This document shows, in pieces, positions 4,259 to 32,092 of a DNA stretch of 35,330 nucleotides. Origin of the DNA: Flavobacteriales bacterium (GTDB lineage Bacteria > Bacteroidota > Bacteroidia > UBA10329). The position numbers were made by a program, and so were the translations under genes. Below the pieces are notes generated by a model, which worked only from the letters and a program-made list of their open reading frames with translations, ran no database searches and was not told where the DNA came from. The stretch is taken from assembly GCA_016124845.1 (NCBI GenBank), contig WGMW01000061.1:1-35330 (forward strand). The letters are read 5' to 3'. Numbering within the stretch: position 1 is the first letter of the stretch; every line of letters starts with the position of its first letter.

Positions 4259-4324
4259 TTGCAGTTGAACGAAATGACCTTCAAGATGCAACATTGGATT
4301 TCAAACAGCAACGTAGACCGAACA

Positions 4325-6847: not shown

Positions 6848-6866
6848 CCCTTAATTTCTTGTTGAA

Positions 6867-7304
6867 ATGTTGCGCCTTGCAAAGCTCACTTTCTTGTTCT
6901 GTTTTTGCTGGAGCATTTCGGCTTTGGCTCAAACGTCAGATTCAACTTCCGTTCAGGTAGGATTTTCTGGCACGTTGACGCAGGCCACAGAACTGGCCCG
7001 TGAAAAAGGCATGAATTTCTTTGTGGTGGTTTGGGAGGATGAGGAAAGTCCTGCGTACAAAAACCTTGTAACGATACTGAGCGATTCAACAGTTATTCAA
7101 GCATTTGATGGGAAGGTTCTTCCACTTGTGGCTCAACGCACCACCTCAAACGGCATGAACTTGGAGAAACAGTTTGGATTTACGGAATTTCCAACAGCCA
7201 TGTTTGTGAGTTTGGAAGGTGAAGAACTCTACACGTTGGAGGCTCCAGCAAAGTTGGCGGCCGATCAGCTTATCGACCTCTACGAACGAAACGCCAGACC
7301 GTGA
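6867..7304 (+). CDS. Exported thioredoxin-fold protein lacking the CxxC motif
   Basis: 145 residues with an N-terminal signal peptide (about residues 1-22, ending ALAQ). The remainder looks like a thioredoxin fold: a strand FFVVVWEDEE where the active-site helix should begin, and a conserved cis-proline region EFPTAMFVS (Pro109). The redox CxxC expected after the first strand is replaced by EDEESPAY, so thiol-disulfide chemistry is unlikely and a structural or chaperone role is more plausible. The start is ATG, 19 bases after the preceding stop. Its stop overlaps the GTG start of the TMTC-like gene by four bases (GTGA), implying translational coupling and a shared task. The function is unknown. 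Confidence 0.75.
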   Translation: MLRLAKLTFLFCFCWSISALAQTSDSTSVQVGFSGTLTQATELAREKGMNFFVVVWEDEESPAYKNLVTILSDSTVIQAFDGKVLPLVAQRTTSNGMNLEKQFGFTEFPTAMFVSLEGEELYTLEAPAKLAADQLIDLYERNARP

Positions 7305-9187: not shown

Positions 9188-9250
9188 TTCCCCACCGTAG
9201 GTGCATTCTCTATCTTGTAGCACTATTCACCGACCGAATTCCCGTCTGGG

Positions 9251-10957
9251 ATGCCCAAACAAAAGAACATACTGCTTGTAGGGTTAAGCATCCTTGCCAT
9301 GGCGCTGGTCTTTGCCAGCTTGGTCGACCCAGAATTTTGGTGGGGTATTCATTGGTTGGCATTTCTTCCAACGGAACTTAAAGTCGGATTTCTCCTGCTG
9401 GCAGCCGTTCCATTTTTGCTTTTGATCCCGAGCCTGAAGATTGATCGGTTACTCTCCAAGAGTTGGGCGAAATGGTCCGTTTTCAGTTTGCTTCTGCTCG
9501 GGGCACTTTTCATGTTCGATCACTTTCCCATTGTAATGGACATGTACGGGAATGCATATCAATATGTCGGTTTCCGTAATGAGATGTTCACCGCATACCC
9601 TGAACAGGCGATCGATGAACTGCTAACATTTGAACTGGTGCCTTCGGCTGGAAGAAAGACCATTCTGCACTCATACACGGTCATTTCCTATTATGCGGAA
9701 CTTGAATACGGAACCATCTTCAAGTGGGCAGGACTCATTTTCGAATTCCTTTTCATCGGTCTTTGGATCTGGTTCGTCCATGGAAAGGTCAAGCAACCAT
9801 TGTGGCAGATCATGTTGGTTATCATTGGAATTTTTGCACCGCTCACGCAAGTGTTCTATGATCACACCGAAACTTACGCGCCCTGTTTTTTCGCCATGCT
9901 GCTTTGGTTGGTGCTGATGGTTGCGCAGGTGCGTTCGCGCAATTCCAAACTGCTGTGGATGCTTGCCGTGCTGTATCTCATCAACGTGAAAATGCATCCC
10001 GTAACGGTGCTTCTGGGGCCTGCGCTTGCACTCGCCTTCGTTTATCAATATGCTTCGTCCAGATCATCATGGCTGTTCACTTGGAAAGGACTTTCAGGGG
10101 CGATCATTGCACCGATATTTTTGATGGGCGCGGTACTTTATTTCTTCATTCTCCATGATTATGATGATCCGCGTTTTTTGGAAGGTGTGACCGATGCCGA
10201 ACGGGTCTTTCTACCGCTTCTTTCCCCAGCACCTCCGCTTGACAGATACAACCTGCTCAGCTTAAACCACATTGCCGATTACGCGAACATGATGCTTCAT
10301 TGGTCCATTCCAGCTTGGCTTATTGTTGCTGGTGGGCTCGTGATAGTGGGTGCAAAAAGATTGTTCCACTCCGTGGAGAGCAAGCTCATATTCCTGACGC
10401 TCCTGCTGTTCGCATCCTTCTTCTTTGTGTTCAATCCGTTGCTTTCCATGCCCATGGATTGGGATGTTTTCTCATTCCCTGCCATTGTGCTATTGGTGCT
10501 CTCGGTATTGGTCGTAGAGCAGATTCAGGACGAACGAACAAGCAAGATCCTTGTTCCTGCGGCCATCTCCCTTCAGGTGCTGCTTATTCCCATGTTCCTC
10601 GTCAATGCAGATAAGAAAATGCTTTCCCAACGCTTGGAGAAGGTCGGGGTTCATGTCTTCAAAACGTATTATCTCCACTCGACCCGCATTCTTTTTGGTG
10701 CTTGGAACATGACCGAAAACGTGGATGAATACTTCAACAGAAAGCGGGCAATTGAAGATGAGTTACAACCGTTTGCCTTGCTTGGCAACGACCCGAAATA
10801 TGCGAATCTTTTGATGGATGACGGGTTTTACTATCTCCGTTACGGAAACGATCCCGCAAAGGCGCTCGGTTTTCTGAGGGAGGCACTTCGGTACAATCCG
10901 AGTTCGGTTGAAATACAAGAGTTGTTGCGGGAAGCACAGGCAAACGTGAACCGATGA
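9251..10957 (+). CDS. Multi-pass membrane protein, possible GT-C-like transferase (paralogue of 21883-23799)
   Basis: 568 residues with about ten to twelve TM helices and a soluble C-terminal tail with a single TPR-like helix pair (about residues 525-565). I do not recognise a named family. Conserved blocks shared with the protein at 21883 are a WG.H.LAFL opening, an E.YAP block (ETYAP), a long loop with PLLSPAPPLDRYNLLS, and MPMDWDVFSFPA. Conserved acidic and aromatic residues in loops are compatible with a GT-C-type membrane glycosyltransferase, but this is inference. The ATG start lies 63 bases after the previous gene, and the stop overlaps the next start by four bases (ATGA). A TATCTTG sequence 40 bases upstream of the start weakly resembles a Bacteroidota -7 box. 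Confidence 0.65.
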   Translation: MPKQKNILLVGLSILAMALVFASLVDPEFWWGIHWLAFLPTELKVGFLLLAAVPFLLLIPSLKIDRLLSKSWAKWSVFSLLLLGALFMFDHFPIVMDMYGNAYQYVGFRNEMFTAYPEQAIDELLTFELVPSAGRKTILHSYTVISYYAELEYGTIFKWAGLIFEFLFIGLWIWFVHGKVKQPLWQIMLVIIGIFAPLTQVFYDHTETYAPCFFAMLLWLVLMVAQVRSRNSKLLWMLAVLYLINVKMHPVTVLLGPALALAFVYQYASSRSSWLFTWKGLSGAIIAPIFLMGAVLYFFILHDYDDPRFLEGVTDAERVFLPLLSPAPPLDRYNLLSLNHIADYANMMLHWSIPAWLIVAGGLVIVGAKRLFHSVESKLIFLTLLLFASFFFVFNPLLSMPMDWDVFSFPAIVLLVLSVLVVEQIQDERTSKILVPAAISLQVLLIPMFLVNADKKMLSQRLEKVGVHVFKTYYLHSTRILFGAWNMTENVDEYFNRKRAIEDELQPFALLGNDPKYANLLMDDGFYYLRYGNDPAKALGFLREALRYNPSSVEIQELLREAQANVNR

Positions 10958-12837
10958 ACGGGAGGCAGCGAAGCATAGGAGCTGTTGCTCTGATTCTGGT
11001 CTGTACCATTGCCGCCATGTTTCCAACCCTGCTCAATGGTTGGACCAGTTGGGATGATAAGGTCTATGTGCTCGATAACGCCTTGATTCAGCACCTTTCG
11101 TGGGCAAACCTCAAAGCGATCTTCACCACGTTGGAAGTCAATGGAACGTATTCTCCGTTGGTGCTTCTGAGTTGGGCAGCCAACTATTGGATTGAGGGAA
11201 ATTCTCCGTTCGGCTACCATTTGCTCAACCTGTTGCTTCATGCAGCCAATGCAGTACTTGTTTTTCTATTTGTTCGCAGGCTGAGTGAAAGCCTGACCGT
11301 TGCCACGCTTGCAGCTCTCTTGTTCGGCATCCATCCCATGAATGTGGAGCCTGTGGCTTGGATAACAGGGCGGAAAGATGTTCTCTACGCGTTCTTCTCG
11401 CTGCTTTCACTTACCACGTATGTCAAATATGCGCAGCAGGGTTTCAAAAATCGAAGCTTGGTGTTTTGGTCGTGTCTGTTTTTGCTTTTCGCTTTGCTTT
11501 CCAAAGCCACAGCGGTTGTCGTACCCATTTGGATGTTGCTCATTGATCTGCGCTTCGCGGATCGATTGAACAAAAAGATCCTGTTGCAGAAGCTGCCATT
11601 TCTTTCCTTGGCCGGTGTTTTCGGACTGCTGGCCATCTATGCGCAGCAACAGACGCCAGCGCTCTCAACTGCTATTGATCGCTCATTCCTCCATTCTATT
11701 CTATCTGCGGGCTACAGCCATTTGATGTACTTTCTCAAAGCCCTGTTTCCGTTCCAATTGGCGGCATTTCATCCTTATCCGAAAGAAGGAATCACAACGG
11801 ATCTGCTATCGTGGTTCGGTCTGATTCTTTGGCTCGGAACCGCTTTCGCAAGTGCCTTTTGGTTCTCCAAAAACAAGCGGTCGTTGACTGCCTTTGGAGT
11901 GTTGTTTTTCCTCATCGGCATCTTTCCTGTCTCGCAGATCATTCCTGTCGGGGAAGCCGTTCTGGCCGATCGCTACGCATACCTTCCGTACATCGGTCTG
12001 TTCGTGGCTTCAGTAGTTTTTCTTGAACGTTTGATGAATCGCAATGGGATCAAACCAATGCTCATTCAGGTGACGATTCTTGGCTATGCGTTCTGGTTGG
12101 GTTTCAGCTCATTCCAAACTGCCAGAACGTGGGAGAATGATGACACGCTTTGGACGAATGTGATGCGGATCTATCCCGATTGTGCCAAGGCGTATGTGAA
12201 CCGAGGTTCATACTGCGCAAATAGGAATGAGACGGAGTTGGCGCTTTTGGACATGGAGAAGGCGCTGTCGTTGAATCCGAACATGCTCGAACTCCATCAA
12301 CAACTTGGATTGCTTTACCAACGACTTGAGCGGTTCGATGACGCGGAAAGATCGTTCACCAACGCGCTGAAACTGGATCCAACGTACGAACCTGCATTAT
12401 TGAACCGAGCCTTGAATTTCGCCTATCTGGGCAATTTGGAAAAAGCAATTACCGACCTCACGTTGGTTACGGTGGTCAACGAAAGCAACTCGCTGGCTTA
12501 CCTGAACCGAGGTGTACTTTATGAGCAAGTAGGTGCGATGAACTTGGCGATGGCTGATTACACAAAGGTGGTTGAACTGAAGCCGCTTGAACACGAAGGA
12601 TTCCAATATCGGGCCGTGTTGAATTTCAGGACAGGCGATCTGAATCAGGCGTTGCAAGATGCGTTGAAGTGGGAAGACCTACGGCCGAAAGATGCCAAGG
12701 CGCAACGCTGGCTTGCTCGCATCTATTTCAAATTAGATGATCTGGAGCTTGCCCGAACACATGCACGCAGGGCAGCAGAACTGGGCGGCCCATTGGAACC
12801 GCAGGAATTGGAGCAGCTCGGAACGGACCAACGCTAA
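10954..12837 (+). CDS. TMTC-like multi-pass membrane protein with C-terminal TPRs (second copy)
   Basis: 627 residues, a paralogue of the 7301 gene at similar length and with the same order of parts. TM1 is followed by SWDDKVYVLDN (Asp34-Asp35) in loop 1. HPMNVEPVAWITGRKD and ADRYAYLPYIG are TMTC-like signatures, and about ten TM helices are present. TPRs occupy residues about 410-620 (AYVNRGSYCANRNETELAL, AYLNRGVLYEQVGAMNLAM). The ATG overlaps the preceding stop (ATGA), so translation is probably coupled. The stop shares the tetranucleotide CTAA at 12834-12837 with the converging epimerase gene. The candidate role is glycosylation of exported proteins or glycans at the outer face of the inner membrane. 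Substrate and sugar are unknown. Confidence 0.75.
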   Translation: MNGRQRSIGAVALILVCTIAAMFPTLLNGWTSWDDKVYVLDNALIQHLSWANLKAIFTTLEVNGTYSPLVLLSWAANYWIEGNSPFGYHLLNLLLHAANAVLVFLFVRRLSESLTVATLAALLFGIHPMNVEPVAWITGRKDVLYAFFSLLSLTTYVKYAQQGFKNRSLVFWSCLFLLFALLSKATAVVVPIWMLLIDLRFADRLNKKILLQKLPFLSLAGVFGLLAIYAQQQTPALSTAIDRSFLHSILSAGYSHLMYFLKALFPFQLAAFHPYPKEGITTDLLSWFGLILWLGTAFASAFWFSKNKRSLTAFGVLFFLIGIFPVSQIIPVGEAVLADRYAYLPYIGLFVASVVFLERLMNRNGIKPMLIQVTILGYAFWLGFSSFQTARTWENDDTLWTNVMRIYPDCAKAYVNRGSYCANRNETELALLDMEKALSLNPNMLELHQQLGLLYQRLERFDDAERSFTNALKLDPTYEPALLNRALNFAYLGNLEKAITDLTLVTVVNESNSLAYLNRGVLYEQVGAMNLAMADYTKVVELKPLEHEGFQYRAVLNFRTGDLNQALQDALKWEDLRPKDAKAQRWLARIYFKLDDLELARTHARRAAELGGPLEPQELEQLGTDQR

Positions 12838-14144
12838 CGGTCCATCACCTCAAAACGACTGACACCGATCGATTTTCGGAAGTCATCATTGCTGTAAAAA
12901 ATGGCAAACTGGTAATGGCCTGGTTGTAACTGAAACGTGGCCTTGTGTTCGGAAACTCCGTTCTGAGCCTGCCATTTTTCCTCCTCAAAAAGTGCCTCAT
13001 CCCAATGATAACGGTAAAGAATATGCACCTCGCTTACTGTCGAATCAATCTCAACAAACAGGGTTTTCGGTCGGTCAACGAAGGTTTCCTGCGTGGTTAC
13101 AAATCCGTACCACGGAAATGGACGTACCGCTTTGCCCTCAATTTCCTTCGCCTCAAATGAATCGTAAACTACGTTATCTGAAAACTGTGTCTCTATTTCA
13201 GTCTTCGTGAGATTGCCTACAATAGAGAAGGGTTGATCAGTGAAATGAATCCACGGTCCCGAAGCATTCGGTTCCTTATTATACAGCATGGCACTCCAAA
13301 TGCACAGCTGCCGCAGGTAAAATGGGTCGGACAGCATTTGATGAAGTTGCATCAACTGGAATATCTGTAGCCGTATGTAGTGCGGACGATTTGGATAAAG
13401 TGGCCGTTGGTTGTACTTGGTCCACGAGCGTTGGTCGTAATATGGAAGCGCGGTTCGTAGGCTGACGAGGCACTCCTCCAAAATGCGGATGGCACGTGCG
13501 TCTGTGCGATAGATCAGGCAGTAGTCCATGAGCCCGAAAAGGCCGAACATGAACCCGTTCAACACCTCTGGGCTCTGCGGTGAGTTCGGGTACTCCTCTA
13601 TCCACAGAAGATTTTCGGGTGTTCGAGAGAGGCATCCGCCCTTTTCCTGCGGCATCAGTAGCGTGTAGGCCAATTTCTCCACGGTCGGATAGACGCTCGT
13701 GTCCTTTGTCACAGCCGCATATCGCAACAGAAAGCTGATGCCCAGTCCCTGTGCCATGCCCGAATACCAAGGTGGCTGCAGGTCATTGTGTTCCGTCAGG
13801 TACGGAAGTCCTATGCCCTTGCCATCAAACAGCTCATGCACAAGATTCTTGTCCAAGAAATACGATAGCTGGTTCTTCGCCTTCTGCAGATATTCCTCAT
13901 TTCCTGTCTGCTCGTATTCATTCAGGCAAAGAATGCCATAATAGCAGATGGAAACGGGATGATAATTGCCTTCGAGCTGGACGATGTTTCGCGCATCAAA
14001 CTGCTTGGACGTGTCGTTCTCAAATCCTTCAATGTCCAAGCGGTCTACCACGCAGGAATAGCGGGCCAACGGCTGGCCGAACACATGAATTCCTGAGAGA
14101 AGAACCCAACAGACAACGACCATGAAACCGACAATTCTCTGCAT
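12834..14144 (-). CDS. Exported D-glucuronyl C5-epimerase-like protein
   Basis: 436 residues with a signal peptide (about 1-23, ending VFGQ). Residues about 100-290 match the C-terminal catalytic domain of heparan sulfate D-glucuronyl C5-epimerase (Glce): WYSGMAQGLGISFLLR, WIEEYPNSPQSPEVLNGFMF, YDQRSWTKYN and PHYIRLQIFQL. The vertebrate enzyme's active site uses a Glu-Tyr pair and two later tyrosines; the counterparts here appear to be Glu184-Tyr185, Tyr244 and Tyr256. A beta-rich domain of unknown role follows (about 300-436). Expected chemistry: C5 inversion of D-glucuronate to L-iduronate within a polymer, here in the periplasm or at the surface. It is last in a minus-strand operon, three bases after the YfhO-like gene. 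Another uronate epimerase or a lyase-like activity remains possible. Confidence 0.75.
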   Translation of the reverse strand: MQRIVGFMVVVCWVLLSGIHVFGQPLARYSCVVDRLDIEGFENDTSKQFDARNIVQLEGNYHPVSICYYGILCLNEYEQTGNEEYLQKAKNQLSYFLDKNLVHELFDGKGIGLPYLTEHNDLQPPWYSGMAQGLGISFLLRYAAVTKDTSVYPTVEKLAYTLLMPQEKGGCLSRTPENLLWIEEYPNSPQSPEVLNGFMFGLFGLMDYCLIYRTDARAIRILEECLVSLRTALPYYDQRSWTKYNQRPLYPNRPHYIRLQIFQLMQLHQMLSDPFYLRQLCIWSAMLYNKEPNASGPWIHFTDQPFSIVGNLTKTEIETQFSDNVVYDSFEAKEIEGKAVRPFPWYGFVTTQETFVDRPKTLFVEIDSTVSEVHILYRYHWDEALFEEEKWQAQNGVSEHKATFQLQPGHYQFAIFYSNDDFRKSIGVSRFEVMDR

Positions 14145-14147
14145 CGG

Positions 14148-16709
14148 CTATGATTCGGTTGTTTCGGGCAAGTGCTCTTTCTTTCGGGCAAATAGGATTG
14201 AGCAACCGAAGATGGCAAGCAACCAAGTGCCTGACCCTGCGGCTGCCAACGGTTCTCCTTCTTTGAACGGTTTTGCTTCGTACTCGAATCGCACTTTGTG
14301 CAGACCAGGAGGTACGACAATTCCGCGCAGCAGGTAGTTGACGCGAACGTGTTCCACGGGCTCATCATCAATGAACGAATGCCAATAGTTGTTGCCCTGA
14401 TACCAGATTTCGGACATCACCAAAAGCTTGGTTCTATCGGTAGAAACGAGATAGGCGACCTTACCTGGCGATCTGGCGCTCAGCTCAACCTTGCTGAATG
14501 CGGAAGCTGCGGTATCAACACTTGCAAGTTGACTCTTGAAACGCTCATCAACTGTGACGAATTTCGCTCTGTCCAGCTTGCTTAGAAGCTCCATTTCTTC
14601 GTCAGGACCATTGACCCATGCGAGGGAATCGACAAACCAGGCAAACCCGTTGGCGGTGATGTTCTCGCGGAAGTCGTTCATGCCATATCCGACCTTGAAA
14701 AACCGCGCATTCAGCATATTGAGAATGGGAACTTCGGCCTGCCGAGAACCAGATTTGACCATTTGAATCTCACGGTCAAGGTAATGGTCGGTCAGATCCT
14801 GAAACCGTCTGAGTTTGGCCGCGTGGTTTCCACCGATGTTGTTGAAATAGTACGATGGTCGGGCATCCTGCATCACGGCAGCCGTCAGGTCGATCACTCG
14901 ATCACTTGCGAGTGCGATGCGGCTGATGGTAACATCCGCATCCGAAGGCGGTGAGGCTCTGATAAAATCTTCCGATTTGGCGAAGGTTGCACTTGTACTG
15001 TAAGGTCTGTCAACCAGTAGCAGATCGACCGTGGTCATTACGCCCAAAAGCAGAACGGCACGCGTACCACGAAGCCATCCTTTTATCCAAGAAAGCATGG
15101 CGATAACCACGATGATCAAAAGCACTGATCCACGGAACGCATCCGAACGCATCGCGCTTGCACGGTCGCTTCGGAGGGCTTCCAAAAGTCCGTCCACCAC
15201 CTTTTCGGGATTTCCCAGATGGATCAGTTGGTTGCGGAAATTCTCATCAATGCCAACTCCGTGAGTTTCTGCGCCATAATCCCACGAAAAATCGAAATAT
15301 GATGGGCCGATGAGCAAGAAGAACAGGAAGAACAGCGACAACGCGGCTCCACCACCGATCAGCACTTTCCTTTTTTGCTTGAGTTGCTCTGGGTCTTTCA
15401 GCAAACGATGCAGCCCATCAACCGACACCCAGGCCATCAGGCCAACGGCCAGGCCAAGCACCATGGACGGTGCGCGGAAACGATTGAAAAATGGGACGTG
15501 ATCGAACATCAGTTGATTGATGAAACCTGTGTTGTCGCCAAGCGCAATGATGAAGTACAGCATCAGCATCGCACCAATGGTGATTCTCAGTTTCTTGGAT
15601 CCGAACACCATTCCCAACAGGAAGAGACAGAACGCCACAATTCCGATGTACGTGGGCGATTCGTTCACAGGTTTTTCGCCCCAGAACAATGGCACAACCG
15701 CTTCATCTCCAGAAATTCTTGAACCCTGAAGCCCTGTGCGTTGGATGTATTTGTAAGATTCCGAATCCTTGCCGACCAGTTCATGTGCCGAACCTCCCAC
15801 GATGTGCGGAAGGATCAGCGAGCCCATTTCCATCAGGTCGTGACTGAAAATGTACGCGTACTCGCGGTCGAGGCCATTGCTCTGACCTTGACTTTCGGCA
15901 GTAAGTATGCGCTTGCCACGGACCGAATCTTTCGTGTAAGCGTAATTGGACCAAAGCATGGAAATGTTCGGAAGCACTCCGATGATCACCGCCAATAATG
16001 CGAGGCCAACAGCTTTCGGAATCACAATTCCATCTTTCTCCCGTAAAAGCTGAATGCCACGGACCATGCCGAGTACAAAACCTCCGAGCAGCGCGTAATA
16101 CGTGATCTGCAAGTGGTTGGTGGCCAAGTGCAACGCACCGAAAAGCACCATCAGAAAGAACCCGCGCAGAAACCTGCGGTCGAAAAGCAAGTACAGCCCG
16201 ATCAGTATTGGCAGCGCGGTGGCAATGGCCTTGACCTTGGATGAGTGTCCTGCCGTCATGTTTCCCACATTGATGGTGGACAGGCCGAAGACCAACGCGC
16301 CCAAGAGTGCCAGCCAGACGGGATAGCCCGACACGACCAACGCAATGTAAAGACAGAGCATCGGGAACATGAGATGCACGATCTGTGGTTGCGTCCATTT
16401 TTCGAGCGAATTGACAAACCCAGATGCCCGGTTGTTGGGATAAACGGGATAGATGAGCGTGGTGGGCATGCCACAATAGCTTCGATCGGTCCAATTGGTC
16501 AGTTCGCCAGTCTGCTCATAATGCGCTTTCACATCGCGCTTCATGCCCAAACTGTGCAGTTTGTCGCCCTGCATGATCATCTTTCCCTGAAAAGCGGATG
16601 GCACCAGAATAAAGCATGTAAGCAGCATGACAGCAACCGCCACCAAGTGCTTGACTGCGGCCATGCTGAACCGTTGGATGGCTGATGTATTTTGCTTTTC
16701 CTCAGTCAT
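14148..16709 (-). CDS. YfhO-family multi-pass membrane protein
   Basis: 853 residues. One TM helix lies near residues 20-40, followed by a large extracytoplasmic loop with the NWTDRSYCGMPT block (about 72-83) typical of YfhO proteins. About a dozen further TM helices follow to about residue 565. A soluble, probably extracytoplasmic domain (about 590-820) precedes a last TM helix and a charged tail. YfhO in Firmicutes is a GT-C-fold protein needed to glycosylate lipoteichoic acid; Bacteroidota members often sit in surface-polysaccharide loci. Here it overlaps the upstream lipoprotein gene by eight bases and is followed after three bases by the epimerase gene. It is probably a membrane glycosyltransferase using a polyprenyl-linked sugar, with the acceptor unknown. 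Confidence 0.8.
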   Translation of the reverse strand: MTEEKQNTSAIQRFSMAAVKHLVAVAVMLLTCFILVPSAFQGKMIMQGDKLHSLGMKRDVKAHYEQTGELTNWTDRSYCGMPTTLIYPVYPNNRASGFVNSLEKWTQPQIVHLMFPMLCLYIALVVSGYPVWLALLGALVFGLSTINVGNMTAGHSSKVKAIATALPILIGLYLLFDRRFLRGFFLMVLFGALHLATNHLQITYYALLGGFVLGMVRGIQLLREKDGIVIPKAVGLALLAVIIGVLPNISMLWSNYAYTKDSVRGKRILTAESQGQSNGLDREYAYIFSHDLMEMGSLILPHIVGGSAHELVGKDSESYKYIQRTGLQGSRISGDEAVVPLFWGEKPVNESPTYIGIVAFCLFLLGMVFGSKKLRITIGAMLMLYFIIALGDNTGFINQLMFDHVPFFNRFRAPSMVLGLAVGLMAWVSVDGLHRLLKDPEQLKQKRKVLIGGGAALSLFFLFFLLIGPSYFDFSWDYGAETHGVGIDENFRNQLIHLGNPEKVVDGLLEALRSDRASAMRSDAFRGSVLLIIVVIAMLSWIKGWLRGTRAVLLLGVMTTVDLLLVDRPYSTSATFAKSEDFIRASPPSDADVTISRIALASDRVIDLTAAVMQDARPSYYFNNIGGNHAAKLRRFQDLTDHYLDREIQMVKSGSRQAEVPILNMLNARFFKVGYGMNDFRENITANGFAWFVDSLAWVNGPDEEMELLSKLDRAKFVTVDERFKSQLASVDTAASAFSKVELSARSPGKVAYLVSTDRTKLLVMSEIWYQGNNYWHSFIDDEPVEHVRVNYLLRGIVVPPGLHKVRFEYEAKPFKEGEPLAAAGSGTWLLAIFGCSILFARKKEHLPETTES

Positions 16710-17409
16710 TCGGCAACAGTTCGTTCAGGTTGAATTCTTCGGTCACCAGTTCTCCATTCTCTGAAGGTTTCATCAGAAAGACCATGGTTTCTGCCTCCTC
16801 GTTCAGCGACCAGTCCAGCAGTTCCCCGTTCGGGCTGGTAACCTCAAGTTCCTTCCCCGAACCGACATCCACCAATCGAAGTCCGTTCGTTGATCGTTCC
16901 AAAATGAACAGATGGCGCTTGGCCGTTCGCTGGTAGTCAAATGACTGATATTCAACACCTTTTGGTAAAAGCCAACTGTACGTATCCTTTTCCTGATCGT
17001 ACTTGATAACGCCTGTGAACGGACCTTCAAATTCCACTTCCACCTTTCGTATCGGGTTCGGGTAGAATGGATTGCCAGATTCGAACGAAGTGCCTTGGAC
17101 CAAAATGTTGCGGTTGTTCATATACCACGGCCCGACCGTGATGATCCAATAGGGCGTTCCGCTCACACCAATGGGCCGTCCGAGGGAAGATGGTGTGAAA
17201 TCGGTGCCGAGGCGTTGGTTGATGGTTTCGACCGAGATCAGCGAATCGGTGTACGCCAAGAATGAAATGCGCGTGTGCCGCTCGGCCGTTTCCTCCTCTT
17301 TCCGAACGCCCTTTTCGGAGCATGAGGAAAGCATCGCAACGCAAAGAAGAAGCAGGCCGAAACCTGTTCCGATACTTGCGATGGCACGCTTCTGTGTGGT
17401 CTTTCTCAT
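16702..17409 (-). CDS. Lipoprotein of unknown function
   Basis: 235 residues from the ATG at 17409; an in-frame TTG directly before it is less likely. A hydrophobic signal (about residues 13-28) ends in a lipobox LSSC, giving Cys30 as the lipidated residue. The mature part is beta-rich with repeated short strands (for example YWIITVGPWYMNN, HLFILERS and LRLVDVGSGKELEV), resembling part of a beta-propeller or sandwich. No catalytic motif is recognisable. It sits between a multi-pass membrane protein and the YfhO-like protein and overlaps the latter by eight bases. I infer an accessory envelope subunit of the glycan locus. Confidence 0.75.
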   Translation of the reverse strand: MRKTTQKRAIASIGTGFGLLLLCVAMLSSCSEKGVRKEEETAERHTRISFLAYTDSLISVETINQRLGTDFTPSSLGRPIGVSGTPYWIITVGPWYMNNRNILVQGTSFESGNPFYPNPIRKVEVEFEGPFTGVIKYDQEKDTYSWLLPKGVEYQSFDYQRTAKRHLFILERSTNGLRLVDVGSGKELEVTSPNGELLDWSLNEEAETMVFLMKPSENGELVTEEFNLNELLPND

Positions 17410-17424
17410 CAACGAATCACAAAC

Positions 17425-18444
17425 TTACCTCAGTTTTTCACTCGCCCAAACCACAATTGCCTTGGCACTGATGACGTTTAGCGGAAACTCCAGCACCACA
17501 TGCATGAAACTCAGTGCCAGCGCCCCATAAAACCCAAGGCGATAATCGATGATGAACAGGGCTGAAAACGTCAGCCAGATGGCGAGAATGAGCCAAGCGC
17601 GCTTGCCTGTAAGTCCTTTGTGCCAACCGATAATGGCCGTTTTGGTGAACCAGTTGAAGTAATGATACATGTACGCGAAGGCCACAAATCGCTGAAGTTT
17701 CAACTCCCAGTCTCCGTAGAAATAGAACGCGTTCGAATCGGTGAGGCCGAGCAGTTGCCCAACGCGGATGCTCAATCTGTGAAAACCAGAGGCAAGAAAG
17801 TTCTCCTTTGTCTGGTCGGCAAACGCGTAGAAGGAATGATCCACATCCACCAGCGCAATGAATGCAGGCGCGAGCAGCATGAGAAGAACCGAAAGAAACC
17901 CGATGGCCGATTGCGACTTGATGGCACCGTAAAGCATGAACGTGAGCGTGAACAGATACACATGGATCAGCGTTGGAACCAACGCGCCAAGCAGGACCAA
18001 CTGTAATGGAAACAGGTTGGATGCGATGGCGATGCCCACTCCGAGCAACAGCCCGATGGTGCGTTTTACGGGGTCTTTGATCAATGCGAGAATTGCTGCC
18101 GACCAAATGGAAAGCAGCAGAAATTCGTTCGAATAACGGTCGATGTGAACGACCATTTGTGAGGGAATTCCGCTGGAAAGCAAACCCATGAAACCGAGTA
18201 CTTTGGGAACCGTGAGAACAGCTACGACAATCCCGACAATCCATAGCCAAATCGTTTTCCCGCTCACGTAGTAGTTTCTATCGCGCAACCAGTTTATTTC
18301 GGTGAGATAGTGCAGCGGACCCAAGAATGCGTACGCCACCAAGAACGATCCGAACGGCATCAGGTAGGCCAAGGCCAATGCCAGTAGGATCAGCCCAAGG
18401 TTGAGCAGATCGATTCGTTCCGTTCTTGATGCAATGGCGGTCAT
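17425..18444 (-). CDS. Multi-pass membrane protein with paired HxxxE motifs, unknown function
   Basis: 339 residues with about nine predicted TM helices. Polar residues inside or next to helices stand out: His45-x3-Glu49 (GPLHYLTEINW), His161 (LIHVYLF), His261 (YHYFNW) and His315-x3-Glu319 (FMHVVLEF). Such buried His/Glu residues recall membrane metalloenzymes such as the Brp/Blh carotene dioxygenases or lipid desaturases and hydroxylases, but I cannot assign a family. The gene overlaps the GT4 gene by four bases and is followed 15 bases later by the lipoprotein gene, so it belongs to the glycan operon. It could equally be a structural membrane component. Confidence 0.7.
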   Translation of the reverse strand: MTAIASRTERIDLLNLGLILLALALAYLMPFGSFLVAYAFLGPLHYLTEINWLRDRNYYVSGKTIWLWIVGIVVAVLTVPKVLGFMGLLSSGIPSQMVVHIDRYSNEFLLLSIWSAAILALIKDPVKRTIGLLLGVGIAIASNLFPLQLVLLGALVPTLIHVYLFTLTFMLYGAIKSQSAIGFLSVLLMLLAPAFIALVDVDHSFYAFADQTKENFLASGFHRLSIRVGQLLGLTDSNAFYFYGDWELKLQRFVAFAYMYHYFNWFTKTAIIGWHKGLTGKRAWLILAIWLTFSALFIIDYRLGFYGALALSFMHVVLEFPLNVISAKAIVVWASEKLR

Positions 18445-19523
18445 GCGTTTTCTATCATCTCAACAAATGCCTGTTTACGACTTTCCAAAGCATACTTCTC
18501 CATAATACGTTCTCGGGCTTGTATGGAAAGGTTGACAAGTTTTTCGCTTTGCAATGCGGTCAATACTAATTCGTTGAGGCTTTCCAAAGAACGTTCCGTC
18601 AAAATAAAACCTGTATCTCCAACGATCTCGGGCATTTCGTTCACCGCAGAAACGATCGGCACACAGCCGCAAAGCATCGATTCGGCAAGCGCACAACCGA
18701 ATCCCTCAAAAAGCGACAATTGCACAAAAAACACGCTTCGCTGAAAGTACCCCAAAAGTTCCGTTTGAGACATGTTTCCGACCACGGTCATGTTCTGCGG
18801 TAGCTTCACATTCGTTGGAACATCGCCAATAACCACGAAGGTTCTTTCTGAGAAACGTTCCGCCAGTTTCAAGAACAGTTCCCCGTCTCTTCGGGTAAAT
18901 TGTCCCGTTCCAATTACGGTAATGAAATCGATGTTCTTTTCAGCCTCTGAAAGCGGTTTCCAGAACTCGGAATCAAAGCCATACGGAATGACTTTGAGCG
19001 GGGTGTTCAGCTTTGGGAAATGATGCTTCACTCCCTGATCACCGATCAGATCGGTACTATATGGATCGGCCGAATGGATCAGCGAATTGCTGAGCGGAAC
19101 AACCGTAGTTGCGAGGCTGTAACTGAGACCGCATGCGAACTTGGGCAATGGTTTTCGCAACACTCCATATCCGATCTTCGGGGCGGCACAGCCATCGGTT
19201 CCTTGAACGATAATGAAGACAGGTTTCCTGAAAATCTTTCCAAGCAGTGTAGGAAGAACACTCCAATATCCACCGAACGAGCAAACAACAGCTTTGGAGG
19301 AAGAGAGATGCATCAACAGAAAAAAGAGTTGCGCAACCAGTTGGAACGGATTCATCCACTTTTTCGGCCAATCGTAGATGTTTTCAACCACCTCGTAGCG
19401 TGTGCGTAGCAGGTTGATGTCCGCTTGCACAAAGGTCGGTCGCTCTGGTGCTATGAAAATGATCCGTTCGATCTCTGAAATCTGAGTATGCGAAGGTAAC
19501 CTGTAACTGTACTCAGGTCTCAT
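18441..19523 (-). CDS. Glycosyltransferase family 4 (GT-B) protein
   Basis: 360 residues from the ATG at 19523; a TTG at 19565 would add 14 residues but would run into the divergent gene's upstream region. The GT-B fold is supported by an N-terminal Rossmann-like half with a glycine-rich turn (CSFGGYWSVLPTLLGK), the inter-domain block VIPYGFDSEFWKP, and the GT4 retaining signature EGFGCALAESMLCGCVPIVS with the E-x7-E pair that binds the nucleotide sugar. A hydrophobic stretch near residues 60-75 may attach it to the inner membrane. It should use an activated nucleotide sugar in the cytosol to extend a lipid-linked glycan. It is first in the five-gene minus-strand operon and diverges from a GT2 gene. 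Confidence 0.88.
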   Translation of the reverse strand: MRPEYSYRLPSHTQISEIERIIFIAPERPTFVQADINLLRTRYEVVENIYDWPKKWMNPFQLVAQLFFLLMHLSSSKAVVCSFGGYWSVLPTLLGKIFRKPVFIIVQGTDGCAAPKIGYGVLRKPLPKFACGLSYSLATTVVPLSNSLIHSADPYSTDLIGDQGVKHHFPKLNTPLKVIPYGFDSEFWKPLSEAEKNIDFITVIGTGQFTRRDGELFLKLAERFSERTFVVIGDVPTNVKLPQNMTVVGNMSQTELLGYFQRSVFFVQLSLFEGFGCALAESMLCGCVPIVSAVNEMPEIVGDTGFILTERSLESLNELVLTALQSEKLVNLSIQARERIMEKYALESRKQAFVEMIENA

Positions 19524-19573
19524 ACGAATGCAATGCCTTTGAGAACCTGTATCTTTCCTGCTCAATTTTGGCG
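19524..19573. promoter_or_regulatory. Short divergent intergenic region, likely promoters for both glycan operons
   Basis: Only 50 bases separate the GT4 and GT2 start codons. TATCTTTC at 19550-19557 resembles the Bacteroidota -7 consensus TAnnTTTG for rightward transcription, but I see no TTG at the usual -33 spacing. No clear leftward element is visible. If real, transcription of both arms probably starts inside or just across this gap, with short leaders. Confidence 0.3.
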
Positions 19574-20536
19574 ATGATCTCGATTGTTGTACCTGTTTTC
19601 AATGAAGCGGAGAATGTGGATGTTCTCTGCGAACGGCTCCGACAGGAGGCATTGAAGTGGGATGACGATTTCGAGACGATCTTCGTGAATGATGCCTCCA
19701 CAGATGGCACACGGGAACATGTTCTAAAGCAAATAGCTCAGGGATTTCCTGCCTCGTTGGTTCAGTTCTCCCGCAATTTCGGACATCAGGCGGCCATAAC
19801 TGCTGGGCTGGTGCATGCCAAAGGAGATGCGGTGGTTGTCATGGACGGTGATCTTCAGGATCCGCCAAGCGTTATCACGGAGTTCATCCAGCAATGGAAA
19901 AACGGCCACGATGTGGTCTATGGCATCCGCACCAAGCGCAAAGAAGGGTTTTGGCTGCGTTTCTCGTACGCGGCTTTTTACAACGTTCTGTCTGCTGTGG
20001 GTAACATTTCCATACCCAAAGACAGCGGAGATTTCTGTTTGATGGACCGAAAAGTGGTGGATGTGCTGGTCAGGGAAATGCCCGAACAGATACGTTTCGT
20101 GCGCGGGTTGCGGGCCTACGCTGGGTTCAGGCAGATCGGAGTGACATTCGAACGTTCTGAACGGATTCATGACACTTCGAAATACTCGGGCAAGAAATTG
20201 ATCGGTCTGGCTGCGGATGGCATTTTCGGCTTCTCCACCTTGCCACTTCGCATTGCCAGTTATTTGGGATTGTTGGTGGCACTCGGCTCGTTTCTGGTCG
20301 GTCTGTTTTTCATCTTTCATCGCATCTTGGACTTCAAGATCTTCGGGTATTCACCTGCAGATGTTCCAGGAATGGCATCCTTGGCGGTTGGACTTTTCTT
20401 CCTTTTCGGCATCACGCTTACCATTCTCGGAATCATCGGAGAGTACATCGGACGGATCTATTTGGAGGTGAAGAAACGGCCGCAGTACATCATTGAGGAA
20501 GTCATCAACCCTAACTCGGATTCGATTGGCAACTGA
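19574..20536 (+). CDS. GT2 polyprenyl-phosphate glycosyltransferase (GtrB/ArnC/DPM1-like)
   Basis: 320 residues starting MISIVVPVFNEAE at the ATG at 19574; a TTG six bases earlier is also in frame. The GT-A core shows the nucleotide-binding start VVPVFNE, the NDASTDGT loop, the metal-binding DGDLQDPP (Asp91-x-Asp93) and KDSGDFCLMDRKV, as in GtrB, ArnC and dolichol-phosphate-mannose synthases. Two C-terminal TM helices (about 225-255 and 265-290) anchor it to the inner membrane. Known role of the family: transfer of one sugar from a nucleotide sugar to polyprenyl phosphate, making the donor used by GT-C enzymes on the far side of the membrane. That fits the YfhO and TMTC-like proteins of this window. 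The following FAD gene overlaps its end. Confidence 0.88.
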   Translation: MISIVVPVFNEAENVDVLCERLRQEALKWDDDFETIFVNDASTDGTREHVLKQIAQGFPASLVQFSRNFGHQAAITAGLVHAKGDAVVVMDGDLQDPPSVITEFIQQWKNGHDVVYGIRTKRKEGFWLRFSYAAFYNVLSAVGNISIPKDSGDFCLMDRKVVDVLVREMPEQIRFVRGLRAYAGFRQIGVTFERSERIHDTSKYSGKKLIGLAADGIFGFSTLPLRIASYLGLLVALGSFLVGLFFIFHRILDFKIFGYSPADVPGMASLAVGLFFLFGITLTILGIIGEYIGRIYLEVKKRPQYIIEEVINPNSDSIGN

Positions 20537-21881
20537 GTCGGATATTCTTGTCATCGGTGGCGGAATTACGGGTATGAGCATGGCGTATCTGGCTGCTCGA
20601 AGTGGGAAAACCGTGACCGTTCTGGAAGCTGGCGAGAAATTCGGTGGACTGCTTGATACGTTTGAGATCGGTGGTACGCGGCTCGAAAAATTCTACCACC
20701 ATTTCTTCTTGGATGACAGGGAATTGCATTGGCTGCTGCACGAATTGGGGCTTTCGAATAACGTGATGTACCGCGAAACTTCCATGGGAATTTACCGCGA
20801 TGGGAAGATCCACGATTTCAATACGCCTACGGATCTGCTGCGGTTTTCTCCGCTCAATCTGTTGGATAAGGTCCGATTCGGTGCTACCAGTTTCCTGCTT
20901 GGGAAGTTTTACAACTGGAGGAAACATGAAGAGCGTTCGGCTTACGAATGGTTCAAAAAATGGTGTGGTGAACGCGTGACGGCCACTATTTGGGAACCGC
21001 TGCTCCGTGTGAAGTTCGGGGTGCATTACAAAGATGTTCCATTGGCATGGATGATCGGACGGCTGGGGCAACGGCTGAACTCACGCAAGAATGGAAAGGA
21101 AATGCTTGGCTATCTCGATGGCAGTCTGCAAGTGCTGAACGACCGATTGACCGAGCGATTGAGAACAATGGGCGTGCAACTGGTGGCTTCATCGCCAGTC
21201 ACGGAAATTCTGGTCGAAAACGGAAAAGTGAGCGGGGCAAAGACAGCAGCAAGTGAATTCAGAGCCAACCAAGTGATTGCCACCGTTCCGAATCAAGTGA
21301 TCGCTCAATTGATCAAACCGTTGAACGAAACTTTCGCGGCCAAACTCAATGAGGTGAAATATTTCGGAGCGTTCTGCACCATTTTGGAGCTTGACCGACC
21401 ATTGAGTCACGTTTACTGGCTGAACATGGCCGATGCCGATTTTCCTTTCGGTGGCGTTATCGAACACACCAATTTCATCGGAGCGAACAAGTATGGGAAC
21501 ACGCACATCGTTTATCTTTCAAGATACTTTACGGCTGAAGAGGAAATGGCCAAACTATCGGAAGAGGAATTGAAACAGACCATGTTGCAGGGCGTTCGAA
21601 AAGCGTTTCCCGAATTTTCGGAAAAGCATCTGAAGAACGTGCATGTTTTCCGAACGAATACAGCGGCCACGGTCTGCGACCTGAACTTCTCAACCAAGGT
21701 CAAAGCATGCCGATCGGAAATAGAAGGTTTTACCATAGCCAATATGATGCACATTTATCCTGACGAACGCAGCGTAAATAACGCCATCCGCGTGGCCGCA
21801 AATGTTTGCCAGTCGTTGGGCATGGATTGCGAGGAAGTTCCGTTGGGAAATTCATTATCAGGTCAGATTGGAATCAAATAA
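20526..21881 (+). CDS. FAD/NAD(P)-dependent oxidoreductase (amine-oxidase/UGM-like fold)
   Basis: About 451 residues. No ATG or GTG lies between the frame's opening and the Rossmann motif. The TTG at 20526, overlapping the upstream stop by 11 bases, is my preferred start; a TTG at 20493 would add 11 residues. The FAD-binding motif is DILVIGGGITGMSMAYLA, followed by VLEAGEKFGG, the pattern shared by amine oxidases, protoporphyrinogen oxidase and UDP-galactopyranose mutase. A second conserved block, KFYHHFFLDD, lies near residue 55, and an FAD-contacting C-terminal stretch (MMHIYPDERSVNNAI) ends the domain. Tight coupling to a GT2 gene suggests it modifies a nucleotide sugar or a polyprenyl-linked sugar. 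The exact reaction cannot be read from the sequence. Confidence 0.8.
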   Translation: MATESDILVIGGGITGMSMAYLAARSGKTVTVLEAGEKFGGLLDTFEIGGTRLEKFYHHFFLDDRELHWLLHELGLSNNVMYRETSMGIYRDGKIHDFNTPTDLLRFSPLNLLDKVRFGATSFLLGKFYNWRKHEERSAYEWFKKWCGERVTATIWEPLLRVKFGVHYKDVPLAWMIGRLGQRLNSRKNGKEMLGYLDGSLQVLNDRLTERLRTMGVQLVASSPVTEILVENGKVSGAKTAASEFRANQVIATVPNQVIAQLIKPLNETFAAKLNEVKYFGAFCTILELDRPLSHVYWLNMADADFPFGGVIEHTNFIGANKYGNTHIVYLSRYFTAEEEMAKLSEEELKQTMLQGVRKAFPEFSEKHLKNVHVFRTNTAATVCDLNFSTKVKACRSEIEGFTIANMMHIYPDERSVNNAIRVAANVCQSLGMDCEEVPLGNSLSGQIGIK

Positions 21882-21882
21882 C

Positions 21883-23799
21883 ATGGGTTTCAATCTCAAA
21901 AAGGAAAATCTGACCGTCACCGCCTTGGGGCTTGCGCTTTGGGGGCTTTACGCATTCGCCACGGCATTTCCCGATTCGCTTTGGGGATTGCATCATCTCG
22001 CTTTTCTCAGCCCTGTAGCTAAAGCAAGTTACCTTTCGTTGTCCTTCATGTTGGTGCTTTCAGGTCTTTTCGACCTTCCATCTTTCCAATTTAAAAACCG
22101 ATGGCGATGGCTTGCGGTGGTCACGGTTCCGATTCTCTGTGGTCTTGCATACTATCACTTTCCGTTTGCGGCCTCACTTACAGGAGATGCCGAATTGTTC
22201 AACCAGAAAATGGGCGAACGCACCACAGAGTTCTATCCGCTTTTTGTGGAAAAACTGCTGTCTCCGAACATCTTTCATCCGAAGACAGGCAACACCACCG
22301 TGCTCAGCGGCATTCGCTTGATGTCCTACTATTTCGGCATTACGCACCATGAAGCTTATCGCTGGTTGGGAGCAGCTTCAGGTGTGCTGTTCATTTTCCT
22401 GTGGTTTCTGTTGTTGATGGGCTTGGAGCTGAACGGAAGCAAATTCATGGTTGCTTCCATCATTGGTGTCTTCGCACCATTTTCGCAGTTCTTTTTCGGG
22501 TACGAAGAGATCTATGCGCCCACGTATCCTGTGCTGCTCGCGTTTCTGATTACACACGTCATCTCATTCCGTAAACCGAGTATCGGATGGCTGCTGGTGC
22601 AACTGTTTTTAGCCTTCCTCTGCATGAAATTCCATGCCGTGTTTGTGCTGCTTTTCCCATCGGTTCTCTTGTCAACCGTGTTTGTCATTTCCAAAAAGTT
22701 GAACCGCCCAACTGCTTGGTTCACTTGGCGAAAGATCTCGTTGTTTGTGTTGCTGCCGATCACCATCGCAGGGCTTTTTGTCTACTTCTTCATTACCAAG
22801 GATTACAATGATCCAGGGTTTCTGGGTGATGATGTGAACATCTACGAGCGGCTTTTCCTGCCCATCGTCAGTCCGCCCGCGCCTTTGGACCGCTACAACC
22901 TTTTCAGCTTCAATCATGCGTTGGATTATTTCAACATGCTCTTCCAATGGTTGGGCGGAAGTATGCTCGTGTTACTTGCTGTGTTTATTGTCCTCAGGAA
23001 AAATGTTCGTTGGAACTGGCCAGAATTGGTCAGCGTTGGACTTGCTTCCATCCTGTTCCTCATGATCTATTTCGCGTACAACCCGTTGATGTCAATGCCT
23101 TATGACTACGACCTGTTTTCAATTGTGGGTCCTGTTTTTCTGGTGTTCATTGTGCTGGTGCTGAAAAATGACACATCGAAGCAATCCATGAACTGGATCG
23201 GTCCAACGCTTGGTATCTGTCTGCTTGCGTTGCCAATGTTTCAGGTCAATGCATCAGCTTCCGCGCTATCGTTTCGGTTAGAAAATGTGGGCGAACATGT
23301 GTTCAGAACCTACTGGATCCGTTCGGCAGGGGACATCCGATCAGCGATTGAACTTTCTGTTCACCCGCAGGAGAGATTCCAACGATTTGAATCGGTTATT
23401 GACCATTTGGAACCGTACGCGACCAAAGGAAATGACACGGAATATGCCCACCTACTTCTGGAATTGGGCAAACTCTATCGACAACCGAAAGGAGATTACC
23501 AATCCGCTCTTGCTTGCCACCAAAAAGCCAAGGAATATGATGCCGACTTTCTGGCCAACTACATTGGTCTGATGGAATGCAATTACATGCTTGGGCGCTA
23601 CCGCGAAGCATTCAATTACAGCATGGTTCTGGTGCAACACAACTTTCCTTCGGAACAACAGGCATTACGGATTGCCATTGAATGTTCATATCAGGCGCAA
23701 GAGCTGGGATTGACCGAGGAACTTTGCAAGCGCTTCCTGAGCAAATGGAACGATTCTGATATCAGAGAGCATTTGGTGTATCTCTCCGAACGGAACTAA
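21883..23799 (+). CDS. Multi-pass membrane protein with C-terminal TPR-like tail (paralogue of 9251-10957)
   Basis: 638 residues from the ATG at 21883, one base after the preceding stop; an upstream in-frame ATG at 21802 would read through the end of the FAD gene and is rejected. About eleven TM helices are present. Blocks shared with the 9251 product are LWGLHHLAFLSP, EEIYAP, PIVSPPAPLDRYNLFS and MPYDYDLFSIV. The tail (about residues 525-638) contains TPR-like helix pairs (EYAHLLLELGKLY and ANYIGLMECNYMLGRY). A GT-C-type membrane transferase is a reasonable guess, not proven. Its stop shares CTAA at 23796-23799 with the converging sulfotransferase gene. Confidence 0.65.
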   Translation: MGFNLKKENLTVTALGLALWGLYAFATAFPDSLWGLHHLAFLSPVAKASYLSLSFMLVLSGLFDLPSFQFKNRWRWLAVVTVPILCGLAYYHFPFAASLTGDAELFNQKMGERTTEFYPLFVEKLLSPNIFHPKTGNTTVLSGIRLMSYYFGITHHEAYRWLGAASGVLFIFLWFLLLMGLELNGSKFMVASIIGVFAPFSQFFFGYEEIYAPTYPVLLAFLITHVISFRKPSIGWLLVQLFLAFLCMKFHAVFVLLFPSVLLSTVFVISKKLNRPTAWFTWRKISLFVLLPITIAGLFVYFFITKDYNDPGFLGDDVNIYERLFLPIVSPPAPLDRYNLFSFNHALDYFNMLFQWLGGSMLVLLAVFIVLRKNVRWNWPELVSVGLASILFLMIYFAYNPLMSMPYDYDLFSIVGPVFLVFIVLVLKNDTSKQSMNWIGPTLGICLLALPMFQVNASASALSFRLENVGEHVFRTYWIRSAGDIRSAIELSVHPQERFQRFESVIDHLEPYATKGNDTEYAHLLLELGKLYRQPKGDYQSALACHQKAKEYDADFLANYIGLMECNYMLGRYREAFNYSMVLVQHNFPSEQQALRIAIECSYQAQELGLTEELCKRFLSKWNDSDIREHLVYLSERN

Positions 23800-24764
23800 A
23801 CTGCGTTCTGCCGGCTTTGCTCAATTCGAGCGTACAATTCCTGATTTCTTTGAATCACGGCATCGATTTCGCTGATCTCTTTCTGACTTAGAAGTTCCTT
23901 CCATTTGGTCAATGAATCTCCAGAGGTTGATGTGTTTCGGTGCTTCAGATTCAATTGCTGGATTCTTTGTTCCTCGCTTCGATGCGCTTCTTGCAGGTTG
24001 AGAAACCGAAAAACGTTAGCCATGGTGCTTGCCTGATCATTCACCAACTGCTCGTAATTCAGGATCAGAATACGATCACTGAGCGCAGAAATCGCATTCA
24101 ACGCCAGTTCATTCAGCCTGAACCACATTTCCACTATCTCGGTCATTGATGGAATAGCTCCTTGCGCCAAATTCACTTCAAAACGCGTGTTCCAGCAACC
24201 TTCAGAGTTTGCTGGGAAAGAGTACTCCGTTCGACTGTGCTTCAGACTTTCCTCAAAAAAGTACTTCGTGCTGGAACTGTACCCGAAAACATCCCGAATG
24301 ATGATGATGAACTTGGCTTCAGGGAAAAGCGCATTCGCATATTCCAATTTGTTCATCAGGTGCGGAGACTTGTTCATCGGAACGATGTGCTTCCAATCAT
24401 AGTTCATCCTTCCGTGTCCTTCGTCCCAGTAGGTGTTCAACCGCATCAATTTGCGCTTCATTCCCTGTCCATCACGAACAAAATTTGCAATGTAATCGGT
24501 CAATTGATAGGTGAACGTTGGGTTCGCATTTGCTGCGGTCAGATGATCGCACGTGCCAAGCATTTTGGCTCCTCCGATGGCAGTCCAAACCTCATTCATT
24601 TCCGCGCCTATCCGCAACAATTGCGGGTGCGTGTGCAGCAGATTGCTGAGCAGGGTTGTCCCGCTGCGCATGCAACCAGTAATAAACAATGGCCCGTTCG
24701 CGTGCACCGCCTCAGGCTGTCCCTGACTGCCCAATAAGTTCCTCAACAAAGGCGACAACTTCAT
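23796..24764 (-). CDS. PAPS-dependent sulfotransferase family protein
   Basis: 322 residues from an ATG at 24764, with no signal peptide, so cytosolic. The 5'-phosphosulfate loop is FITGCMRSGTTLLSNLL (about residues 27-43), the P-loop-like motif of sulfotransferases. KSPHLMNKL and FPEAKFIIIIRDVFGYSSS follow, carrying the 3'-phosphate-binding Arg157 and Ser163. This layout is typical of the Sulfotransfer_3 type and of glycan and amino-acid sulfotransferases. Expected reaction: transfer of sulfate from PAPS to a hydroxyl or amine. It converges on the FAD and membrane-protein operon with a 4-base stop overlap. Together with the C5-epimerase gene it suggests a sulfated uronic-acid glycan, but sulfolipids or small molecules are possible targets. 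Confidence 0.85.
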   Translation of the reverse strand: MKLSPLLRNLLGSQGQPEAVHANGPLFITGCMRSGTTLLSNLLHTHPQLLRIGAEMNEVWTAIGGAKMLGTCDHLTAANANPTFTYQLTDYIANFVRDGQGMKRKLMRLNTYWDEGHGRMNYDWKHIVPMNKSPHLMNKLEYANALFPEAKFIIIIRDVFGYSSSTKYFFEESLKHSRTEYSFPANSEGCWNTRFEVNLAQGAIPSMTEIVEMWFRLNELALNAISALSDRILILNYEQLVNDQASTMANVFRFLNLQEAHRSEEQRIQQLNLKHRNTSTSGDSLTKWKELLSQKEISEIDAVIQRNQELYARIEQSRQNAV

Positions 24765-32091: not shown

Positions 32092-32092
32092 T

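Follow-up and report, generated by a model that had tools for sequence, protein, structure and literature searches.

A predicted exported GLCE-type C5-epimerase and a PAPS-type sulfotransferase in a candidate surface-oligosaccharide locus of Bacteroidota

Introduction

The window analyzed here, the entire contig 61 (35,330 nucleotides; WGMW01000061.1) of the 4.36-Mb genome of a Flavobacteriales bacterium of the phylum Bacteroidota (GCA_016124845.1), carries a gene for a relative of the animal D-glucuronyl C5-epimerase GLCE and a gene for a sulfotransferase of the PAPS-dependent type. In the initial annotation, these two genes were taken to bracket a surface-glycan locus that may make a sulfated, iduronate-containing glycan, with the epimerase labeled heparosan type. 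The question is whether the two enzymes would act on one glycan and, if so, what kind of glycan this would be.

Organization of the locus

The named genes were confirmed as open reading frames in the positions assigned to them. On the minus strand, the genes for a family 4 glycosyltransferase (GT4), a seven-segment membrane protein, a lipoprotein, a YfhO-like protein, and the epimerase follow one another with junctions of -4, +12, -8, and +3 bp. This spacing of five same-strand genes indicates one transcript, a predicted operon with GT4 as its first gene and the epimerase as its last. The GT4 gene (18441 to 19565; PF00534) is listed with a TTG start, and the true start is probably downstream of it. 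It overlaps by 4 bp the gene for the seven-segment membrane protein (17425 to 18444), which was assigned from its open reading frame and hydrophobic segments. The small lipoprotein (16702 to 17412), with the lipobox LSSC, was recognized from its open reading frame and hydrophobic N terminus, and a Pfam scan placed it in no convincing family. The YfhO-like gene (14148 to 16709) lies 3 bp upstream of the epimerase gene (12834 to 14144).

A plus-strand unit encodes a GT2 resembling the polyprenyl-phosphate sugar transferases PgfS and ArnC (19568 to 20536; PF00535; NF047588, 2.4e-65, below the curated cutoff), an FAD-dependent oxidoreductase of the PRK07233 type (20493 to 21881; NF005560, 6.4e-141, above the cutoff), and a membrane protein with a C-terminal TPR-like region, a putative GT-C enzyme by Pfam scan and hydrophobic segments (21802 to 23799). 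The GT4, GT2, and FAD-enzyme identities given initially were thereby borne out. The sulfotransferase gene (23796 to 24764, minus strand) is convergent with this unit and overlaps the GT-C gene by 4 bp. Both of the supposed bracketing genes are present, but they do not form a simple bracket: the epimerase ends an operon, and the sulfotransferase is a separate gene outside it. Scans for promoters and terminators gave results at or below chance, and no polymerase or flippase was recognized in the window.

Elsewhere in the window, collagen-like repeats occupy the left end of the contig (1 to 900), which probably breaks there, and two adjoining paralogues combine YadA-head repeats with a C-terminal Peptidase_S74 chaperone domain (1745 to 6847). 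Three consecutive membrane proteins resembling the GT-C/TMTC type follow (7301 to 12837), two of them with clear C-terminal TPR repeats. Just past the sulfotransferase are a 1,676-residue SprB-repeat protein with a CHU_C type IX secretion signal (25310 to 30340) and an OlsF/GlsB-like aminolipid synthase succeeded by an acyltransferase (30454 to 32848).

Relation to a conserved carB-YfhO locus

The YfhO-like protein, itself below the Pfam threshold, has approximately 30% identity over approximately 830 residues to the YfhO encoded on contig 9 (PF09586), and the initial identification holds. It is the second copy in the genome, has approximately 10 hydrophobic segments, and is a putative periplasmic GT-C glycosyltransferase; YfhO of Bacillus subtilis has been proposed to be a GT-C enzyme acting outside the cytoplasm (PMC5836110). 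A YfhO homologue is found in all nine genomes of the genus.

Comparison across Bacteroidota revealed a conserved gene order, carB-DUF4834-YfhO-GT4-flippase-GT4/methyltransferase, for which no description of the carB-DUF4834-YfhO-GT4-flippase part was found in the open-access literature searched, which is not proof that there is none. Loci of this type (L147 at 2220 to 14603, L196, L197, L206, and L207) carry variable guest genes, among them sulfotransferases, a methyltransferase, and an epimerase. In the main YfhO locus of the genome, a different Sulfotransfer_3 gene is located between GT4 and the flippase, as it is in two relatives from the genus. The GT4 subfamily of the window, present in 66 of 395 genomes of the class, is the gene common to epimerase and sulfotransferase neighborhoods. 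The window region may be an accessory copy of this conserved surface-oligosaccharide locus.

The epimerase and its relatives

The epimerase has 436 residues, begins with a signal sequence, and carries a C5-epim_C domain (PF06662; E value, 3.4e-32; 111.9 bits against a curated cutoff of 23.3 in a Pfam scan); no other PF06662 protein was found in the genome. In a sequence search of the PDB, GLCE of zebrafish and humans matched at 5e-14 to 1e-13, and with the secreted epimerase family as a profile the GLCE matches were at 8e-22 to 1e-20. The protein has EEYP (183 to 186) and PHY (254 to 256), as named in the initial annotation, and KYNQR (243 to 247). The catalytic residues of GLCE are E499, Y500, N510, Y560, and Y578 (PMC13308652). 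In a HMMER alignment, these correspond to E184, Y185, N196, Y244, and Y256 of the window protein; among 31 relatives, Y185 is found in more than 90% and the other four are invariant. The offset that places GLCE residue numbers on the alignment was set from what we take to be the human numbering.

None of the eight other genomes of the genus has a strong orthologue, and a related protein was found in 21 of the 395 genomes of the class, the query included. A single-protein query of the genome contigs gave no match; an alignment-based scan found 80 loci, 16 of which encode secreted-type proteins from Bacteroidota (15 with 519 to 606 residues and 1 cut off by the end of a contig). A tree built from 31 sequences groups the window epimerase with 15 of these 16 (support, 97/97). 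Extra matches in a phylum-wide scan were confined to short open frames of 322 to 336 amino acids. Short-form C5-epim_C proteins of approximately 310 to 370 amino acids (L030 to L046) were also observed, several among polysaccharide genes.

Flanks of up to 10 kb a side were searched for a conserved set comprising carB, DUF4834, YfhO, a GT4 with the motif YYWPPSGG, flippase, the window GT4, and methyltransferase. A YfhO homologue was found near 6 of the 16 secreted relatives, the window GT4 subfamily (E value, ≤1e-8) near 7, and at least one gene of the set near 10; in one case (L063), the epimerase lies between the small carB-linked open reading frame and YfhO. The remaining 6, some of them on short contigs, have no gene of the conserved locus in their flanks. 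Neither YfhO nor the window GT4 was found near any of 81 short forms (0 of 64 loci; 0 of 17 Bacteroidota neighborhoods). Comparing secreted relatives with Bacteroidota short forms, Fisher's exact test gave a P of 0.007 for YfhO and a P of 9e-5 for any locus gene, both too small because of shared ancestry, the second with a hand-tallied count at a cutoff of 1e-8, looser than the 1e-30 of the control. Judged by these gene contexts, Bacteroidota contain a predicted secreted subgroup of GLCE-type proteins that is tied to the conserved glycan locus.

The sulfotransferase and its pairing with the epimerase

The sulfotransferase belongs to the Sulfotransfer_3 family (PF13469; E value, 3.8e-24) and is predicted to be cytosolic. 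Its PAPS-binding motifs are intact, as first described: G30-x-x-R33-S34-G35-T36 and R157/S165 do not vary among nine orthologues. It is not conserved at the genus level, and clear orthologues with 36 to 47% identity are present in eight other genomes of the class. Four of these eight lie inside a carB-DUF4834 (small open reading frame)-YfhO-GT4 locus, two are beside a flippase, and the remaining two are on short contigs. In two genomes (G094 and G053), no more than approximately 1.5 kb separates the gene from a member of the GT4 subfamily of the window. On this distribution, sulfotransferases appear to be recurrent guests of the YfhO-GT4-flippase locus type.

Conservation of the epimerase and sulfotransferase as a pair, which the initial annotation had suggested looking for in related genomes, was not borne out. 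No sulfotransferase was detected by phmmer or profile in flanks of up to 10 kb a side of the 16 secreted epimerase relatives, and a conserved pair was rejected on this count. Among strong matches, the query genome is the only one with both genes. The exceptions both concern short forms: at locus L043, a sulfotransferase lies at a distance of 4.5 kb, and one other short-form genome gave a weak profile match (E value, 1.5e-5). At the level of the gene pair, the two thus scarcely co-occur in relatives, but the broader idea survives because both belong to one locus type. Each appears to be an optional decoration of a single glycan system, independent of the other, and the query genome combines them.

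A less likely but real possibility is that the two enzymes serve different targets. The epimerase would act on the glycan made by its operon and the sulfotransferase on a capsule, a protein tyrosine, or a lipid, and the closeness of the genes would reflect a coincidental clustering of accessory functions. The separate transcription units and the missing pairing in relatives are in keeping with this, as is the finding that the closest solved structures are protein-tyrosine sulfotransferases, so that the acceptor could be a protein. A distinct capsule-type locus on contig 22, with two sulfotransferases and PAPS genes, points the same way. On the other side are the recurrence of sulfotransferase orthologues in the YfhO-GT4-flippase locus type and the two other genomes in which the gene adjoins the same GT4 subfamily. 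Action of both enzymes on the same molecule would accordingly have the locus type in its favor and the missing pairing and the tyrosine-sulfotransferase resemblance against it.

Fold and predicted role of the epimerase

Modeling against GLCE structures, as proposed at the outset, gave a match to the fold of the GLCE catalytic domain. The AlphaFold model (mean pLDDT, 86) superimposes on the human GLCE-substrate complex 6I01 with a Z score of 29.6 and 2.3 Å over 253 residues, and that of a longer relative (L066) superimposes on GLCE with a Z score of 29.0 and 2.4 Å over 254 residues. The next different fold is a GH8 glucanase, with a Z score of 17.3, so that GLCE is 12 higher. In the model, the alpha/alpha barrel starts soon after the signal peptide and extends to approximately residue 291; the N-terminal beta-hairpin and beta-sandwich domains of the animal enzyme are missing, and a beta-rich region is located C-terminally.

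These architectural differences, and the presence of both hydrolases and sugar epimerases among related alpha/alpha barrels, would fit a protein that has the GLCE fold in another role, either epimerizing a different uronate (e.g., an N-acetylhexosaminuronate or a methylated uronate) or working on glycans from the environment, as a lyase or a scavenging enzyme. We regard this as unlikely: all five GLCE catalytic residues are kept, GLCE stands well above the next fold, and the neighbors are biosynthetic, with no degradation genes recognized among those identified in the vicinity. Conserved residues and modeled fold together suggest that the window epimerase is probably a working GLCE-type C5-epimerase, which would act in the periplasm on an exported glycan.

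Proposed pathway

The genome is predicted to encode PAPS synthesis, with cysC located on contig 22 next to cysD and cysN and with cysQ nearby; CysD, CysN, and CysQ score above their curated cutoffs. UDP-GlcA is likely supplied by a TuaD-like nucleotide sugar dehydrogenase on contig 8, the best candidate for UDP-glucose dehydrogenase (539.1 bits, below the equivalog's cutoff of 700). The same stretch of contig 22 (L052 and L053) is a candidate sulfated capsule locus that combines cysQ, cysC, cysD, and cysN with GDP-fucose genes, two Sulfotransfer_3 genes, polymerase/flippase-like genes, a sugar dehydrogenase, and export genes; profile searches found no second epimerase there or in the other loci of this genome that were examined.

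Our best explanation is that the GT4 would contribute, in the cytosol, to the assembly of a polyprenyl-linked oligosaccharide that contains uronic acid. The sulfotransferase would use PAPS to sulfate a glycan of the same system before export, and the glycan would be flipped. In the periplasm, YfhO would add or transfer a sugar, and the epimerase of the GLCE type would then turn a glucuronate of the exported glycan into iduronate. The acceptor may be a protein O-glycan, a lipid, or a polysaccharide. Taken as a whole, from accessory locus copy to periplasmic epimerization, we give this scheme about an even chance of being correct.

The initial annotation saw a puzzle in this topology, in that sulfation would have to precede epimerization, the reverse of the animal order, or act on another molecule. 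The contrast between an exported epimerase and a cytosolic PAPS-type sulfotransferase stands. In heparan sulfate synthesis, however, N-sulfation itself precedes epimerization (PMC13308652). The puzzle is weaker than first stated, since cytosolic sulfation before flipping and periplasmic epimerization after it are self-consistent.

The idea of a sulfated iduronate glycan gains from the GLCE-type residues and fold, the locus type, and the PAPS genes; what found no support are a conserved pair and a heparosan substrate. That a true heparan- or heparosan-like sulfated polymer is made is very improbable even with a GLCE-type enzyme, a sulfotransferase, PAPS, and likely UDP-GlcA available, given that no heparosan synthase or N-deacetylase/N-sulfotransferase was recognized among the window genes scanned, that the glycosyltransferases are GT4 and polyprenyl-phosphate-type GT2, and that the solved structures nearest to the sulfotransferase belong to enzymes other than those of heparan synthesis. 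The heparosan-type label is therefore unsupported. The company of YfhO, flippase, and GT4 genes points instead to a lipid-linked oligosaccharide. The product of the epimerase is most likely iduronate within an oligosaccharide that has been flipped and is linked to a lipid or a protein.

Comparison with known systems

The window protein shares with animal GLCE (PDB 6HZZ, 6I01, and 4PXQ) the catalytic alpha/alpha barrel and the five catalytic residues. Both are secretory proteins, and the predicted target, glucuronate inside a chain, is the same. They differ in the N-terminal hairpin and beta-sandwich domains, which are features of animal GLCE and not of the wider Pfam family, and in the beta-rich region that follows the barrel of the window protein; identity is approximately 25%. 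Among bacterial C5-epimerases, activity has been demonstrated for that of Bermanella marisrubri alone (Raedts 2013, cited in PMC13308652), and this enzyme has been inferred to share the GLCE mechanism (PMC13308652). Compared by description, both proteins are bacterial; the one from the window is set apart by its place in a secreted subgroup of Bacteroidota that is linked to a YfhO glycan locus.

In Halobacterium salinarum, a protein N-glycan with both sulfate and iduronate is made with an epimerase, Agl32, whose active site is unrelated to that of GLCE (PMC13308652). The glycan proposed here from genes alone would likewise be a prokaryotic surface glycan with iduronate and sulfate. The GLCE catalytic residues are all missing from Agl32, whose substrate is the lipid-linked glycan prior to export, whereas the window enzyme is of the GLCE type and predicted to be exported.

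The protein O-glycan of Bacteroidota contains glucuronate in its common core (PMC12871550), and its LFG locus likewise comprises a flippase and variable glycosyltransferases. The LFG is anchored by metG and wzx, whereas the conserved locus type of the window is anchored by carB-YfhO. Identity with the LFG by way of metG was rejected, as the metG of this genome, on contig 4, has no recognized flippase within approximately 9 kb. A word search of the O-glycosylation review (PMC12871550) found mention of neither sulfate nor an epimerase.

Implications

With a single bacterial D-glucuronyl C5-epimerase of shown activity according to a 2026 paper (PMC13308652), the Bacteroidota subgroup adds candidates, which may also be of use in heparin-related biocatalysis. 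Whether bacteria put iduronate into surface glycans can be asked with the specific genes identified here, some of which belong to cultured species; Mariniphaga anaerophila and Tangfeifania diversioriginum are cultured relatives with the epimerase close to the conserved locus. Sulfotransferases emerge as recurrent parts of the same glycan locus. Tentatively, we suggest that some Bacteroidota may make a sulfated iduronate surface oligosaccharide, possibly on proteins, by means of an epimerase of the GLCE type in the periplasm and a sulfotransferase in the cytosol, both of them optional in a conserved YfhO-GT4-flippase locus. If true, this would amount to heparan-type chemistry carried out by bacteria on a short glycan, in parallel with the archaeal Agl32 pathway but independently of it.
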